Assembly (NCBI RefSeq): GCF_000301055.1
Contig: NZ_JH932300.1
Coordinates: 725,339 to 789,338 of the forward strand
Reading direction: 5' to 3'
DNA: 64,000 nucleotides
Source: Falseniella ignava CCUG 37419
GTDB lineage: Bacteria > Bacillota > Bacilli > Lactobacillales > Aerococcaceae
In this document: positions 57,803 to 63,968 of the stretch, one piece after another
Numbering within the stretch: position 1 is the first letter of the stretch
Layout of the letters: the number at the start of each line of letters is the position of its first letter
Program-made: the position numbers and the translations under genes
The notes under the pieces: generated by a model
Databases searched by the model: none
Seen by the model: the letters and a program-made list of their open reading frames with translations, nothing else
Told to the model about the DNA's origin: nothing

Positions 57803-59052
57803 CTTGAGTTGTAAAGTTAAATGCAACACTTTCTGTTACATGATTCGATGAACTTAAAATCTCTTTACTTCTTCCCCTAGGAGAAGAAAAAATTTAAATA
57901 CGACATTGTTGAAAATACTCTTCTGATGAACGTAGCCCTATCACTTCTCTAATCCTTTTATTGATTGCCTGAGTGGCTTGATCGATATCCATTTCTGAAA
58001 AAAGATGGATGGATTTTCCTTTAGGGATGAATTCCCTCAACAGTTTATTGAAGTTTTCGTTTGAGCCCCGTTCCCAGGATGCGTAGGCATGACAAAAATA
58101 TACGTCTGTATTGAGTTCAGACATTAAGGAGAATTCAGAACCATTATCAAAAGTTATTGAAGCAAATAGGTTAGGGTTATCTGCTAGAATCTCTTCAAAG
58201 GCATTTTTAACCGTTTGACTTTTATAGTCGCTGATTTTCTTAGTAATGGCATAGCGTGTTTTTCTCTCTACCAAGGTAATGATTGCCGGTTCATTTTTCG
58301 TTTTCTTCCCTTTAACCAGATCAGCTTCCCAGTGTCCAAATGTTTCTCTTGATAAGACGTCCTCTGGACGATCGGTGATACTGGTACCTAAGATTCTTTT
58401 GTTTTTACCCTTAGGGTTACTATGCTGGTTTTTTCTTGGTTTCAGACGATACATGACAGGTAAGTCATGTGGTTTGATAGACAAAAGACCTTGACGTATA
58501 TATGAATAGACGGTTTTAAACGTTGGTATATTCTCTACAGGATGCTTTTTTCTATAAAGAGCTATAAATGTCTTTATGTTGTAGAGCCGCTGTTTACCTT
58601 TAAACAATCCTTTAGTGAAGGCATCCTCCAGCGCAGAGAAGAAAGCGCTCGAGAAAGAAACAATCTTTTTGCGGACACACTTTAAACGTCTATTTTCATA
58701 AACAGATTGACCAGAATCTGAGTAGTACACAGTGACTTTCTTATTATAGCCATTAATCTGCTTGATCTGTTCTACAGTGCCCCGATTAATTTCTCTATGG
58801 ATTGTGGAGCGGTTACGTCCAAGGCGTCTGCCTATCTCTGCTTTACTAATATCTTCATTTAACCATTTTTCTATTAGCTGTCTTTCTTTAAAGTCTAAAT
58901 GAGTAAATGATTGGTTCTGATTTGTGTTATAATTATTTGTGGACATGAAGATTCTCCTTTGCTTATTTTGTGGTGATTTAAGTATAACGAATCTTCATGT
59001 CTTTTTGTATTTCAGAAATTACTGAGTGTTGCAATTCATTTTACAACACACC
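57803..59052 (-). mobile_element. IS30-family insertion sequence, intact
   Basis: An element of about 1250 bp between 13-bp direct repeats. The ends are inverted repeats of GTTGTAAAGTTAAATGCAAC (from 57808) and the inward-read GTTGTAAAATGAATTGCAAC, 17 of 20 identical, extending to CACT. It carries one complete transposase. It lies in the intergenic region between the divergent rpmG and the small membrane-protein genes. Confidence 0.85.
57894..58946 (-). CDS. IS30-family transposase
   Basis: A 350-residue transposase. The N-terminal helix-turn-helix (about 18-55: FKERQLIEKWLNEDISKAEIG, RNRSTIHREINRG) binds the ends; the DDE core has Asp in FGHWEADLVKG, Asp in TFDNGSEF and Glu in ERGSNENFNKLLREFIPKG, a strong IS30 signature. 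The frame is uninterrupted. It is transcribed leftward, toward rpmG. Confidence 0.95.
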   Translation of the reverse strand: MSTNNYNTNQNQSFTHLDFKERQLIEKWLNEDISKAEIGRRLGRNRSTIHREINRGTVEQIKQINGYNKKVTVYYSDSGQSVYENRRLKCVRKKIVSFSSAFFSALEDAFTKGLFKGKQRLYNIKTFIALYRKKHPVENIPTFKTVYSYIRQGLLSIKPHDLPVMYRLKPRKNQHSNPKGKNKRILGTSITDRPEDVLSRETFGHWEADLVKGKKTKNEPAIITLVERKTRYAITKKISDYKSQTVKNAFEEILADNPNLFASITFDNGSEFSLMSELNTDVYFCHAYASWERGSNENFNKLLREFIPKGKSIHLFSEMDIDQATQAINKRIREVIGLRSSEEYFQQCRI

Positions 59053-59591: not shown

Positions 59592-59605
59592 AGAAGGTGA
59601 AATTA

Positions 59606-60172
59606 ATGAAGAAGCAAACATTGCGTATGATGGGCGCTGGCTTTTTAGCTGCTGCAATCATCACCATGGTCTTCGCTTTATTACAAGGACATGTTCCTGT
59701 TTCAGGAAATACCGTCGGATCTATTTTCAATTCGGTCGATCAAGAAGAATTTAATCAATTAAAACAACAAAACGATAAATTGACAAAAGAAATTGAAAAA
59801 CTAGAAAAAAATCGTAATGACTTAAATGCTGAAATTGTCGCACTTCGAGAAAAAAATAAAAATGCACAAAATCAGCCAACACAAAATGAAAACAATACCT
59901 CACAGACGACTTCTACTCAAGAAGAAGCCTCTGAGAATATACAGTATGAAAATACTCATGCGTTTACGATCGACCCTGGTGAAACGGCAGATGAAATTGC
60001 ACAACAACTTGAATCAAATGGAATTATTGACTCAGCCGATGAATTATATCAACTCATCGAAGAGTGGCAACTTGAATCTGTAATGCAAAGCGGAACATTC
60101 GAATTAAGTCCAGATATGTCCTTAGATGAGATTGCGAATATTATTACAGGCGGCGCGTATTATTACAACTAA
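59606..60172 (+). CDS. membrane protein with stand-alone MltG-type LysM-like domain
   Basis: A 188-residue protein: N-terminal transmembrane helix (about 8-28), a charged coiled coil (about 45-85), a Gln/Asn/Thr-rich linker, and a C-terminal domain (about 120-182) with FTIDPGETADEIAQQLESNG, SGTFELSPDMSLDEIANII. That domain matches the LysM-like substrate-binding part of the endolytic transglycosylase MltG (YceG), but the catalytic domain that normally follows is absent and the frame ends cleanly. The ATG at 59606 follows GAAGGTGA. It may bind or position wall-synthesis enzymes; this is inference. Confidence 0.78.
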   Translation: MKKQTLRMMGAGFLAAAIITMVFALLQGHVPVSGNTVGSIFNSVDQEEFNQLKQQNDKLTKEIEKLEKNRNDLNAEIVALREKNKNAQNQPTQNENNTSQTTSTQEEASENIQYENTHAFTIDPGETADEIAQQLESNGIIDSADELYQLIEEWQLESVMQSGTFELSPDMSLDEIANIITGGAYYYN

Positions 60173-60205: not shown

Positions 60206-60233
60206 AACCCCAGAAGTTTATTCTAAAAACTTC
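60206..60233. terminator. left part of a terminator split by an IS
   Basis: The arm AACCCCAGAAGTTT (60206-60219) pairs with AAAACTTCTGGGGTT at 61821-61835 across the ISL3 insertion. Without the IS they would form a 14-bp stem with a short loop. The local copy AAAACTTC (60226-60233), created by the target duplication, still lets a shorter hairpin form here. Confidence 0.8.
60226..60233 (+). repeat. left 8-bp target duplication of the ISL3 element
   Basis: AAAACTTC, repeated at 61821-61828; 8 bp is the usual ISL3 duplication length. Confidence 0.92.
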
Positions 60234-60357
60234 GGTTCTATAATAAATGATGTTGGTGAGTGAAAACTCATTGGCATCATTTTTTATTTTATATTGAAAA
60301 AGAGCCATAGAATTCCTAAAATGTAAGTGCTAATCAAACATTAGAAAGGAAGTTCCT

Positions 60358-61728
60358 ATGACTCAGAACCATTGTATCGCAAAATTGTTAAAAATTGAAG
60401 ACCCACATATCAAATTAGAAGACCAAGTGGAAACCGTTCGCCATAAGAATCGTAATGAAATCCATTTAATTGGCACTTTAACCTACCGGCCTACAGCTTG
60501 TCAGCACTGTGGTGCTACCAATCATTCAAGTGCAGATATCATCAACCACGGATTTGTAAAGTCCAAGCTTCTTCTAGGTCAACTAGACTTTCAAGCGATT
60601 CGTTTAGTTTTGAAGAAGCAACGATTCTATTGTAAGCATTGTCAGCATACCTTTACTGCTCAGACAGATCTGGTGGATGCACATTCCTTTATTAGTAAGC
60701 GAATCAAGCACATGATCCTTTTTGAACTGGCTCAAACACAGTCCATGTCCTTGATTGCTCAACACTTCAACGTATCCGTGACCACGGTGATTCGTATACT
60801 TGAAGAGAGTTTAGAAGCAGAGAAGAGCTACCGTCCACATCTACCTCAACATCTAGCTATTGATGAATTTAAATCTGTTAAATCAGCTGTTGGAGCCATG
60901 TCCTGCGTGCTTGTTAATAATCATAAGCATACTCTTTTTGATGTCTTAGAAGATCGCACGCAAAAGACCCTCGAAGCTTATTTTATGCGCTATTCTCTAC
61001 AAGAGCGTCGAAAAGTGAAGACGATTACTATTGATATGTACAGTCCTTACTATAAATTCTTCCAAGAGCTCTTTCCTGATGCCAAAATGATTATTGATCG
61101 CTTCCATGTCATCCAACTACTGAATCGGACCTTAAATCAAATACGAGTGAAGGTGATGAATCACCTCAAGACAAAACGCCCACGTGATTATCGAAAGCTC
61201 AAGCAAGAGTGGAAGTTAATCCTCAAAAATAGCGAAACGTTAGACTTTACCAACTATTACGCTCATCGTCTTTATGAGGGAGTTATGACTGAGAAAATGC
61301 GAGTGGACTATTTGATTCAGTTAGATCCTCGCTTGAGGCAAGCTTATGACTGGGTCAATCGAATGAAGTTTGCCGTCAATCACCATCATGACTCGGAAAT
61401 TGAATACTTGTTAGAAGAAAGCCGAAAATATACCTTCTCTCGTCCACTTCGTAAGAGCTTTAATACCATTAAGCGCTATCTCGAAGGAATCAAGAAAGCT
61501 TGTCATTACACCTTATCTAATGGCTATATTGAAGGAGTTAACAATAAAATCAAGCTCGTTAAACGAACCGGTTACGGTTACCGTCGCTTTGACCATCTCA
61601 AGGCTCGCATTATCCTGACTCAAAAACTAACATCCGAAGGCAAACTAATCCTACGCCCCTTAACATTTAAAGAAGAAAAGCAACAAGAAAAAGAAAAGGA
61701 AGAAGCTAATATACATTCTGCTGCTTAG
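60358..61728 (+). CDS. ISL3-family transposase
   Basis: A 456-residue transposase. An N-terminal zinc ribbon (CQHCG near residue 43 and CKHC near 95) and a helix-turn-helix (SLIAQHFNVSVTTVIRILEES, here about 140-160) precede the DDE core with LAIDEFKSVK, TIDMYSPYYK and the C-terminal NGYIEGVNNKIKLVKRTGYG, which holds the catalytic Glu. The frame is intact. GAAAGGAAGTTCC precedes the ATG. Confidence 0.95.
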   Translation: MTQNHCIAKLLKIEDPHIKLEDQVETVRHKNRNEIHLIGTLTYRPTACQHCGATNHSSADIINHGFVKSKLLLGQLDFQAIRLVLKKQRFYCKHCQHTFTAQTDLVDAHSFISKRIKHMILFELAQTQSMSLIAQHFNVSVTTVIRILEESLEAEKSYRPHLPQHLAIDEFKSVKSAVGAMSCVLVNNHKHTLFDVLEDRTQKTLEAYFMRYSLQERRKVKTITIDMYSPYYKFFQELFPDAKMIIDRFHVIQLLNRTLNQIRVKVMNHLKTKRPRDYRKLKQEWKLILKNSETLDFTNYYAHRLYEGVMTEKMRVDYLIQLDPRLRQAYDWVNRMKFAVNHHHDSEIEYLLEESRKYTFSRPLRKSFNTIKRYLEGIKKACHYTLSNGYIEGVNNKIKLVKRTGYGYRRFDHLKARIILTQKLTSEGKLILRPLTFKEEKQQEKEKEEANIHSAA

Positions 61729-61755
61729 TTAGCTGCTTAGTTAATAGATAGCACA

Positions 61756-61783
61756 ATAAAAACCCAGAGAAAAATTCTCTGGG
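61756..61783 (-). terminator. IS-borne terminator facing in from the right
   Basis: Perfect stem CCCAGAGAA/TTCTCTGGG (61763-61771 with 61775-61783) followed by UUUUUAUU on the minus strand. It would stop leftward transcription arriving from the penicillin-binding protein gene before it crosses the transposase. Confidence 0.88.
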
Positions 61784-61820
61784 CAGGAAATTCTCCACCA
61801 ACATCATTTGACAGAGAACC

Positions 61821-61835
61821 AAAACTTCTGGGGTT
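61821..61835. terminator. right arm of the split terminator
   Basis: AAAACTTCTGGGGTT, seven bases after the penicillin-binding protein stop. Its first eight bases are the right ISL3 target duplication; its original partner arm is now at 60206-60219. Confidence 0.8.
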
Positions 61836-61841
61836 ATTTGT

Positions 61842-63968
61842 TTAATCAACCGTGGAAGAGGCTGGTGAGTTCATATAGTCCTCTATCAATTGTTTTGTTT
61901 CTGCCTTTAATTCAAAATATGCATTCATTACTTCTCGAGCAATCTGGGTACTAATCCGTCCCCAGTTCTCTTCTTCTAGAAATGGAACTACCACACTGAT
62001 TGCAATTTCAGGGTCATCATAAGGTGCAAAACCAATAAATGTAGCATTCGTTACAGGTTGATTTTGTGCATATTGAATTGGACCTGAATAGAAAGCTTCT
62101 GTTGTACCCGTTTTAGACCCGACTGTAATCGGATAGTTTTTGAATAAATAACGTGCTGTACCCTCATCAGTATGAGAAACTTGTCGCATCCCCTCGTGGA
62201 TTCGCGCCATTTGCTCTGGACTGACTGGGATAATATTCATCACTTTAGGCTCGATGGTTGATTTGACATCACCTAAATTACCATCTGCATCTGTTCCGCG
62301 AATTTCTTTAACTAATCGAGGTGCATATCGAATTCCACCATTTGCAATCGTTGAGACATACTGAGCCATTTGTAGTGGCGTATATAAGTCAAACTGCCCG
62401 TATGATAAGTCTAACGCGCTAACGAGTTGATCGCTTTCAGGAAGAAAACCAGCAGATTCATTCGGTAAATCAATTCCTGTCTCGACACCTAGCCCAAATA
62501 AAGCAAAATATTGACGTATTTTTTCTAATGTTTCAGGCACAATGCTTAAGCGCCCTTCTTCTTCATAAGTATACTGACCACCAATACGCATTGCCAATTT
62601 AATCATATAAATGTTCGATGATTTTTGTAGCGCGGTAATATCATCAAGTTCAATTTTCTCATTCTGTTCAACCCGGTTAAATACCGAACTCTTCCATTGG
62701 GAAGCTTGAAATTTTAATGGTTCATCAATGATTTGATTATTGTCGATTGAAATTACATTTTCCATATAACCAATCAGGACCATCGCTGGCTTGACACTCG
62801 ATCCCATACCAAAGCTCGAATTAATTGCACCCAGCGTATCATCGATAATTTCATCTTTATTATAATTGTCTGCATTGGCATCATATTCATACCGCTTGCC
62901 TGAAATACCTAGAATATCACCATTTTTGGGATTCATTGCAACAACATAAGCTCGGTCGTTCAGCCCTTGTTGCGGCATATCACGTAGAGCATTTTCTAGA
63001 ATGTCATCAATTCGCTTTTGAAAATCAGAATTAATAGTCATCACGATGTTGTCGCCCTTCGTTCCTTCGAATAGCTGTTCTGATTTAATAATACTATCCG
63101 AAGAATCCGTCACAAAATTATAAAGTGATTTTGTTCCTCGTAATGAATCTTCATATTGTTGTTCTAAATAACTAATTCCGACTCGGTCATTCATTGCATA
63201 ACCTCTAAGTAAGTATTCTCCGGCCACTTCACTTGGAATACCTCGTCGTTCAGAAGAAACTTGTCCTAAAATCGACGTTAACATATCTTCTTGTGGATAG
63301 ATTCGTTGCCAATCTGTTCCGATACTAATTCCTGGCAGATTTCCTAACTGCTCGGAAACACGGGCAATCTCTTCCGGAGTCACATTTTGGTTTTTAACTG
63401 GTACAGTGGAGAAAGCATACGCTGCATTCATTTGTCTGAATAAAGCAGCAATTTTTTCTTCAGCATTTGAAAACTGAATGTCTTCGGAGGTAACTTTATC
63501 TAACTGTGCTTGGTAAAGATCTGTTCCTTTTAGTTGTTTTTCTTCTTTAGATAACCGATCATTGACAGTCTTTGTATTTTTAACAATAAAATAATCCTTT
63601 AAATCTCGCTCGGTTAAATGAGTATTTGGCACCTCGATCAATGAGGCAAGTTGGGTTGCAATATCTACTAAGTCATTTGGGGAGACCACCGAGTCGCTAT
63701 TTCTCGTATAAAGTATTGCTTGTTCTGGTCGATTACCGACTAATACTTTACCAAAGCTATCATAAATCATTCCACGTGGCACCGTTCCGGTAGAAAGTGT
63801 GGATTCTGTTCGTTGAACCATATTTGAGAATCGTTCACCACTATAGAGTTGGATATATGCTAAACGAACAAACAGTGCTGCAAAACAAAGAAAGGTGACA
63901 AAAAATAAAAAATTGAGTCGCCCTGGAATATGAGATTTATTCTGTTTTTTAGAGATGGATTGATTCAA
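61842..63968 (-). CDS. class B penicillin-binding protein (transpeptidase, PBP2b-type)
   Basis: A 708-residue wall cross-linking enzyme. A basic cytoplasmic tail and one transmembrane helix (about 18-38) precede the non-catalytic dimerization domain with VPRGMIYDSFGKVL, then the transpeptidase: catalytic Ser390 in SSVK (390-393), the SSN motif near residue 445, and KTG at 619-621. The long N-terminal module with extra inserts resembles streptococcal PBP2b of the elongation machinery. The start is a TTG at 63968 after GAGGGG; the window ends 32 bp later, so the upstream region is not seen. Confidence 0.93.
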   Translation of the reverse strand: MNQSISKKQNKSHIPGRLNFLFFVTFLCFAALFVRLAYIQLYSGERFSNMVQRTESTLSTGTVPRGMIYDSFGKVLVGNRPEQAILYTRNSDSVVSPNDLVDIATQLASLIEVPNTHLTERDLKDYFIVKNTKTVNDRLSKEEKQLKGTDLYQAQLDKVTSEDIQFSNAEEKIAALFRQMNAAYAFSTVPVKNQNVTPEEIARVSEQLGNLPGISIGTDWQRIYPQEDMLTSILGQVSSERRGIPSEVAGEYLLRGYAMNDRVGISYLEQQYEDSLRGTKSLYNFVTDSSDSIIKSEQLFEGTKGDNIVMTINSDFQKRIDDILENALRDMPQQGLNDRAYVVAMNPKNGDILGISGKRYEYDANADNYNKDEIIDDTLGAINSSFGMGSSVKPAMVLIGYMENVISIDNNQIIDEPLKFQASQWKSSVFNRVEQNEKIELDDITALQKSSNIYMIKLAMRIGGQYTYEEEGRLSIVPETLEKIRQYFALFGLGVETGIDLPNESAGFLPESDQLVSALDLSYGQFDLYTPLQMAQYVSTIANGGIRYAPRLVKEIRGTDADGNLGDVKSTIEPKVMNIIPVSPEQMARIHEGMRQVSHTDEGTARYLFKNYPITVGSKTGTTEAFYSGPIQYAQNQPVTNATFIGFAPYDDPEIAISVVVPFLEEENWGRISTQIAREVMNAYFELKAETKQLIEDYMNSPASSTVD

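Follow-up and report, generated by a model that had tools for sequence, protein, structure and literature searches.

Results

A predicted terminator split by an ISL3 element

The window analysed here is a stretch of 64,000 nucleotides from Falseniella ignava CCUG 37419 in which two convergent genes are separated by an insertion sequence. The left gene (59597..60172, plus strand) is YceG-like, its open reading frame matching PF02618 (E 2e-8), and the right gene (61842..63968, minus strand) encodes a penicillin-binding protein (PBP) with matches to PF00905 (E 8.6e-61) and PF03717 (E 1.4e-39). Their stop positions are 60172 and 61842. A reading made earlier from the DNA letters (the sequence-only reading) had correctly recognised the convergence and the PBP gene; its LysM label for the left gene was rejected in favour of the YceG-like match. 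Upstream of the pair lies an IS30-type element with an HTH_38 domain (57894-58946), three further copies of which occur in the genome at about 100% identity.

Members of the ISL3 family typically have terminal inverted repeats starting with GG and generate an 8-bp target duplication. The element between the two genes spans 1587 bp (60234..61820, plus strand), as delimited by its terminal repeats and duplication and by a second copy of identical length. Its left (60234..60258, plus strand) and right (61796..61820, minus strand) terminal repeats are of the GGTTCT type and match at 21 of the 25 bp compared, and the 8-bp duplication AAAACTTC is present on the plus strand at 60226..60233 and again at 61821..61828. 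The 456-residue transposase (60358..61728, plus strand) is assigned to DDE_Tnp_ISL3 by its match to PF01610 (E 4.7e-53) and also matches PF13542 (E 2e-9).

Outside the element, the sequence AACCCCAGAAGTTT (60206..60219, plus strand) is the exact reverse complement of 61822..61835. Removal of the element and one duplication joins these 14-bp arms into a perfect stem, as the sequence-only reading had proposed in placing an ISL3 element within a terminator hairpin. With a folding energy of -23.5 kcal/mol, the joined empty site (68 nt) is more stable than any of 500 dinucleotide-shuffled versions, whose mean is -10.2 and whose minimum is -21.9 kcal/mol (z -4.9). The stem is followed by the tract TTTGTTTT on the minus strand and TTATTTGTTT on the plus strand, and because tracts are present on both strands it reads as a predicted two-way terminator serving the YceG-like and PBP genes. 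The same reading held that the duplication rebuilds a shorter hairpin on the left. This hairpin is real and weak, folding at -4.1 kcal/mol from the flank alone and at -7.9/-8.8 kcal/mol with the element edge included, compared with -29.8/-31.0 kcal/mol for an 85-nt empty site.

Relatives in which a YceG-like gene converges on the PBP gene were sought among 30 loci of the 75 genomes with a match, and eight were found, all from other genera. A hairpin with a T-run stands just past the PBP stop in 8/8 of them as judged by eye, so that no empty site lacking a hairpin was encountered among these eight. The hairpins differ in sequence between relatives, and in one (L278) the YceG-like gene lies at some distance.

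Other copies of the element

The F. ignava genome holds a second intact copy (G000:C2:369172-370758) flanked by the duplication AGAATTTA. Its empty site folds (shuffle z -7.0) into a 16-position stem with a single mismatch, and the loop corresponds exactly to the 8 duplicated bases. Folding of other copies' empty sites had been suggested as a check of the terminator reading, and this copy sits in a predicted terminator loop. The site was scored as tandem on open reading frames of at least 80 residues; a 60-residue frame would make it convergent. A third, different ISL3-type transposase is encoded in the same genome (L302, G000:C2:719409-720113), and a search for the ends of its element found none.

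The Globicatella sanguinis copy (L004 5001-6368) has no target duplication. Its right flank reproduces, without a mismatch, 36 bases of the left end of a different ISL3 type (L134), the break lying at the loop of the hairpin that this end forms. ISL3 end hairpins can therefore themselves serve as targets, as this copy illustrates. The nearest relative (G047, transposase 67% identical) also lacks a duplication, and its right flank starts with a hairpin and T-run as judged by eye.

Close copies are rare, occurring in 3/395 Lactobacillales genomes at E 1e-60. A contig search returned two loci, one of which, from Ignavigranum ruoffiae (L005, 49%), was left out of the analysis, and a plasmid search returned one weak match. 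This exact element is represented by two copies with duplications and one without, and the statistics below rest on related ISL3 elements with transposases approximately 32-67% identical.

ISL3 insertions are concentrated in predicted terminators

To the 140 stretches with ISL3 transposases from 24 Aerococcaceae genomes were added the window copy, the second copy and the G. sanguinis copy. Ends were searched in these 143 loci, and 106 were kept on the basis of repeats matching at 14 or more of 25 positions, a duplication matching at 7 or more of 8 bases and enough flank. The 106 are copies chosen for having a duplication, those without one being among the 37 excluded. Terminators were predicted by fold energy and T-tail alone, as local hairpins of -12 kcal/mol or lower with a T-tail score of at least 2.5 over an 8-nt tail, and a site was assigned to a terminator when at least half of its 8 duplicated bp fell inside the predicted footprint. 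Background positions were matched for gene-orientation class and for the A/T count and longest run of the 8-mer. Genes in these counts are open reading frames of at least 80 residues, a definition that misses small genes.

Predicted terminators hold 53/106 Aerococcaceae insertions against 12.3 expected at matched positions; the largest value in 200,000 simulations was 29, and matching within the same genome gave an expectation of 12.8. The other 53/106 sites lie outside any predicted terminator, and the preference is statistical, not absolute. It is seen at convergent (17/26 against 16.7% of background positions), tandem (32/64 against 8.1%), genic (3/11 against 3.6%) and divergent sites (1/5 against 3.1%). 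Other Lactobacillales families were sampled through 70 loci, of which 45 had recognisable ends and 40 were used after removal of 4 from Aerococcaceae and 1 duplicate; here 25/40 insertions lie in predicted terminators against 5.7 expected, the largest simulation reaching 17. Insertion above a matched background, a feature of terminator-targeting elements, is present in both sets and, together with the second copy, supports a preference that the sequence-only reading had posed as a question.

All four remaining threshold pairs with a tail requirement also show the excess, and the contrast is smaller where the thresholds are laxer. A logistic model of the 95 intergenic sites, with a 24-bp sequence score, A/T content, flank GC, orientation and stop distance as covariates, gives an odds ratio of 7.9 for a terminator (bootstrap 5.8-15.0). 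Close to a terminator centre, within 32 nt, insertions are 3.7-5.3 times as dense as in the background; at 48-72 nt the ratio has dropped to 0.91, and farther out it is lower still. For hairpins lacking a T-tail the preference is weak (odds ratio 2.1, 1.3-4.0). When the tail requirement is dropped and the energy threshold set at -8 kcal/mol, the raw excess nearly disappears (convergent 21/26 against 71%, tandem 48/64 against 63%), which speaks against any hairpin sufficing.

A and T predominate in the core of the duplicated 8-mers. Within the terminator there is no fixed position, and insertion tracks A/T content, falling in the flanking A- or T-tract or in the loop. A preference of ISL3 for the loop as such was rejected, with 9/53 sites near the apex against 10.5 expected from composition. 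Polarity relative to transcription was not found among 31 tandem sites, where 17 lie downstream, 10 upstream and 4 at the apex against 15.8, 11.3 and 3.9 expected. Given that neither an apex preference nor polarity is detected, there is no direct sign of the hairpin tip or a paused polymerase acting as the cue.

Other insertion sequence families in the same genomes

Control copies were taken by family from 12 of these genomes, 30 loci each, and yielded 13 IS256 (15 had a duplication and 2 were dropped for poor repeats), 25 IS30 and 20 IS3 copies, the ends of the IS30 and IS3 copies being approximate because they rest on matches of 2-5 bp. IS256 and IS30 occupy predicted terminators in 0/13 and 3/25 cases, a contrast with ISL3 (53/106 against 3/38 combined; Fisher p 1.8e-6) that comes from small samples with rough IS30 ends. 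These two families indicate that surviving insertions do not, as a rule, end up in terminators. The excess is not peculiar to ISL3 either, since 13/20 IS3-type (HTH_21) copies also lie in predicted terminators. The IS3-type copies centre on the loop, the insertion point in 9/20 being no more than 4 nt from the middle of the loop of a hairpin that folds at -12 kcal/mol or below. IS3-type loci in hairpins, with repeats containing GACCCCCAAAAGTT, are L244, L248, L251, L252, L253, L259, L261, L265, L266 and L268.

The element carries terminator-like hairpins of its own

Both ends of the window copy contain inward-facing terminator-like hairpins. The left (60245..60282, plus strand) folds into a 17-pair stem with a T-rich tail and is formed partly by the terminal repeat; the right (61762..61784, minus strand) has a 10-pair stem and T-run and falls below the strength of the -12 kcal/mol screen, which it failed. 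Across 39 ISL3 element types, an inward predicted terminator is found at the left end in 23/39 (9/312 among internal 90-nt windows) and at the right end in 30/39 (28/234 among internal 190-nt windows). At least one end is so equipped in 36/39 types and both ends in 17. In ISL3 elements, the left-end hairpin has the terminal repeat as one of its arms and a T-run pointing towards the transposase gene.

Inward-facing predicted terminators lie near one or both ends of most of these elements, which suggests that an insertion brings in a substitute for the terminator it disrupts. Neighbouring genes would thereby stay insulated, and the transposase would be shielded from outside transcription. The transposase gene runs against its neighbours in 46/64 tandem sites (two-sided p 0.0006), an orientation that may reflect selection against being read from outside.

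Discussion

Our results support a model in which this element and its Lactobacillales ISL3 relatives insert preferentially into intrinsic (rho-independent) terminators, as predicted from fold and tail; we assign this reading a probability of roughly 0.78. Terminator targeting as such is already known. IS1272/TnSha1 (IS1182 family) of Staphylococcus inserts into hairpins and shows little specificity for primary sequence, and several of its targets are transcriptional terminators by RNA-seq (PMC4923244). The ISL3 copies likewise enter terminator hairpins. However, IS1272 as described there inserts bluntly, with deletion of part of the stem-loop and no duplication (PMC4923244), whereas the ISL3 copies counted here have an 8-bp duplication and no deletion and use tracts besides loops. 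At the F. ignava site itself both arms are kept. Class C (IIC) group II introns enter downstream of rho-independent terminators according to the available part of PMC3522654, which cites Robart et al. 2007, and they too use the intrinsic terminator as the address of a mobile element. Such an intron is a retroelement that relies on RNA base pairing to enter immediately downstream from the hairpin (PMC3522654). ISL3, by contrast, is a DNA transposon with a DDE-domain transposase that enters tracts, stems and loops and, in F. ignava, the inside of the hairpin.

ISPpu9 also has palindromic intergenic targets, which are a specific repeat, the repetitive extragenic palindrome (PMC8450116), rather than terminators in general as found here for ISL3. 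Within the ISL3 family, the part consulted of one report on Streptococcus mitis B6 describes an element without apparent target duplication (PMC2828477). Laboratory revertants of Enterococcus faecium provide one case in which a plasmid segment that ends in an ISL3-family element inserted halfway through the rho-independent terminator of an rRNA operon (PMC11702846). This event shares the 8-bp duplication, the terminal ISL3 element and the terminator site with our copies; it is a single rearrangement, for which the portion of the report at hand claims no preference (PMC11702846). Terminators upstream of Firmicutes ISL3 transposase genes were already known and, in the accessible text, read as shields against outside transcription (PMC2965389); the window copy similarly has a predicted terminator before its transposase gene. 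A report of an ISL3-wide terminator preference was not found in the open literature, a search that left subscription journals mostly uncovered, and the preference may be known elsewhere.

We propose that the transposase complex would be drawn to the DNA structure of the terminator, an A/T tract beside a perfect palindrome, a combination that may readily extrude a cruciform or become single-stranded. The complex would then cut the two strands of the most A/T-rich patch with an 8-bp stagger. Alternatively, the transposase might be attracted by transcription and not by the DNA palindrome, through RNA polymerase pausing at the U-tract or through an R-loop or supercoiling there. The far stronger preference for T-tailed hairpins (odds ratio 7.9 against 2.1 without a tail) is what such a link to transcription would predict, yet insertions occur in loops and on the A-tract side, and polarity is absent among the 31 tandem sites, although this last is a weak test. 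We consider this explanation unlikely, at around one chance in four.

Recognition of terminator structure would also have to be distinguished from survival. ISL3 might insert at random in A/T-rich DNA, with insertions at gene ends, where terminators lie, being those that persist. In favour of such a history, 95/106 sites fall outside open reading frames of at least 80 residues, insertions are over-represented within 120 bp of a stop codon (odds ratio 1.9) and the excess is common to IS3-type copies. Set against this, the terminator effect is still about 8-fold when stop distance and orientation are modelled, IS256 (0/13) and IS30 (3/25) show no comparable result under the same filter, the density peak around terminator centres has levelled off to background by 48-72 nt, and a broken terminator is a cost in itself. 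Survivor bias is accordingly improbable as the main cause. Slightly more doubtful still is a requirement for sequence only, an A/T-rich 8-mer between less A/T-rich flanks that terminators incidentally offer, which would account for the A/T-rich core of the duplications and for positions that follow composition (apex 9 against 10.5 expected), but leaves 53 against 12.3 after matching for A/T count and run, and an odds ratio of 7.9 once flank GC and a 24-bp score derived from these very sites are included.

Structure-guided insertion into terminators, combined with the end hairpins, leads to a wider and more tentative proposal, to which we give somewhat less than even odds. ISL3 elements may be terminator-swapping transposons, which recognise the structure, break it and restore insulation through the inward-facing terminators near their ends. 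As one of these is formed from the terminal repeat, the element's end hairpin would in turn be a target for further copies. The IS3-type group would have converged on the same address with entry at the loop centre.

If the terminator preference is true, an abundant insertion sequence family has a predictable address, which would allow many copies with few broken genes, and in Lactobacillales terminators would be hot spots of mutation. Read-through where genes converge would become a testable cost of insertion. The family would also provide a system for asking what a transposase sees, whether a DNA palindrome, an A/T tract or paused transcription. By targeting terminators while bringing stop hairpins of their own, ISL3 elements may spread with little harm to the host.
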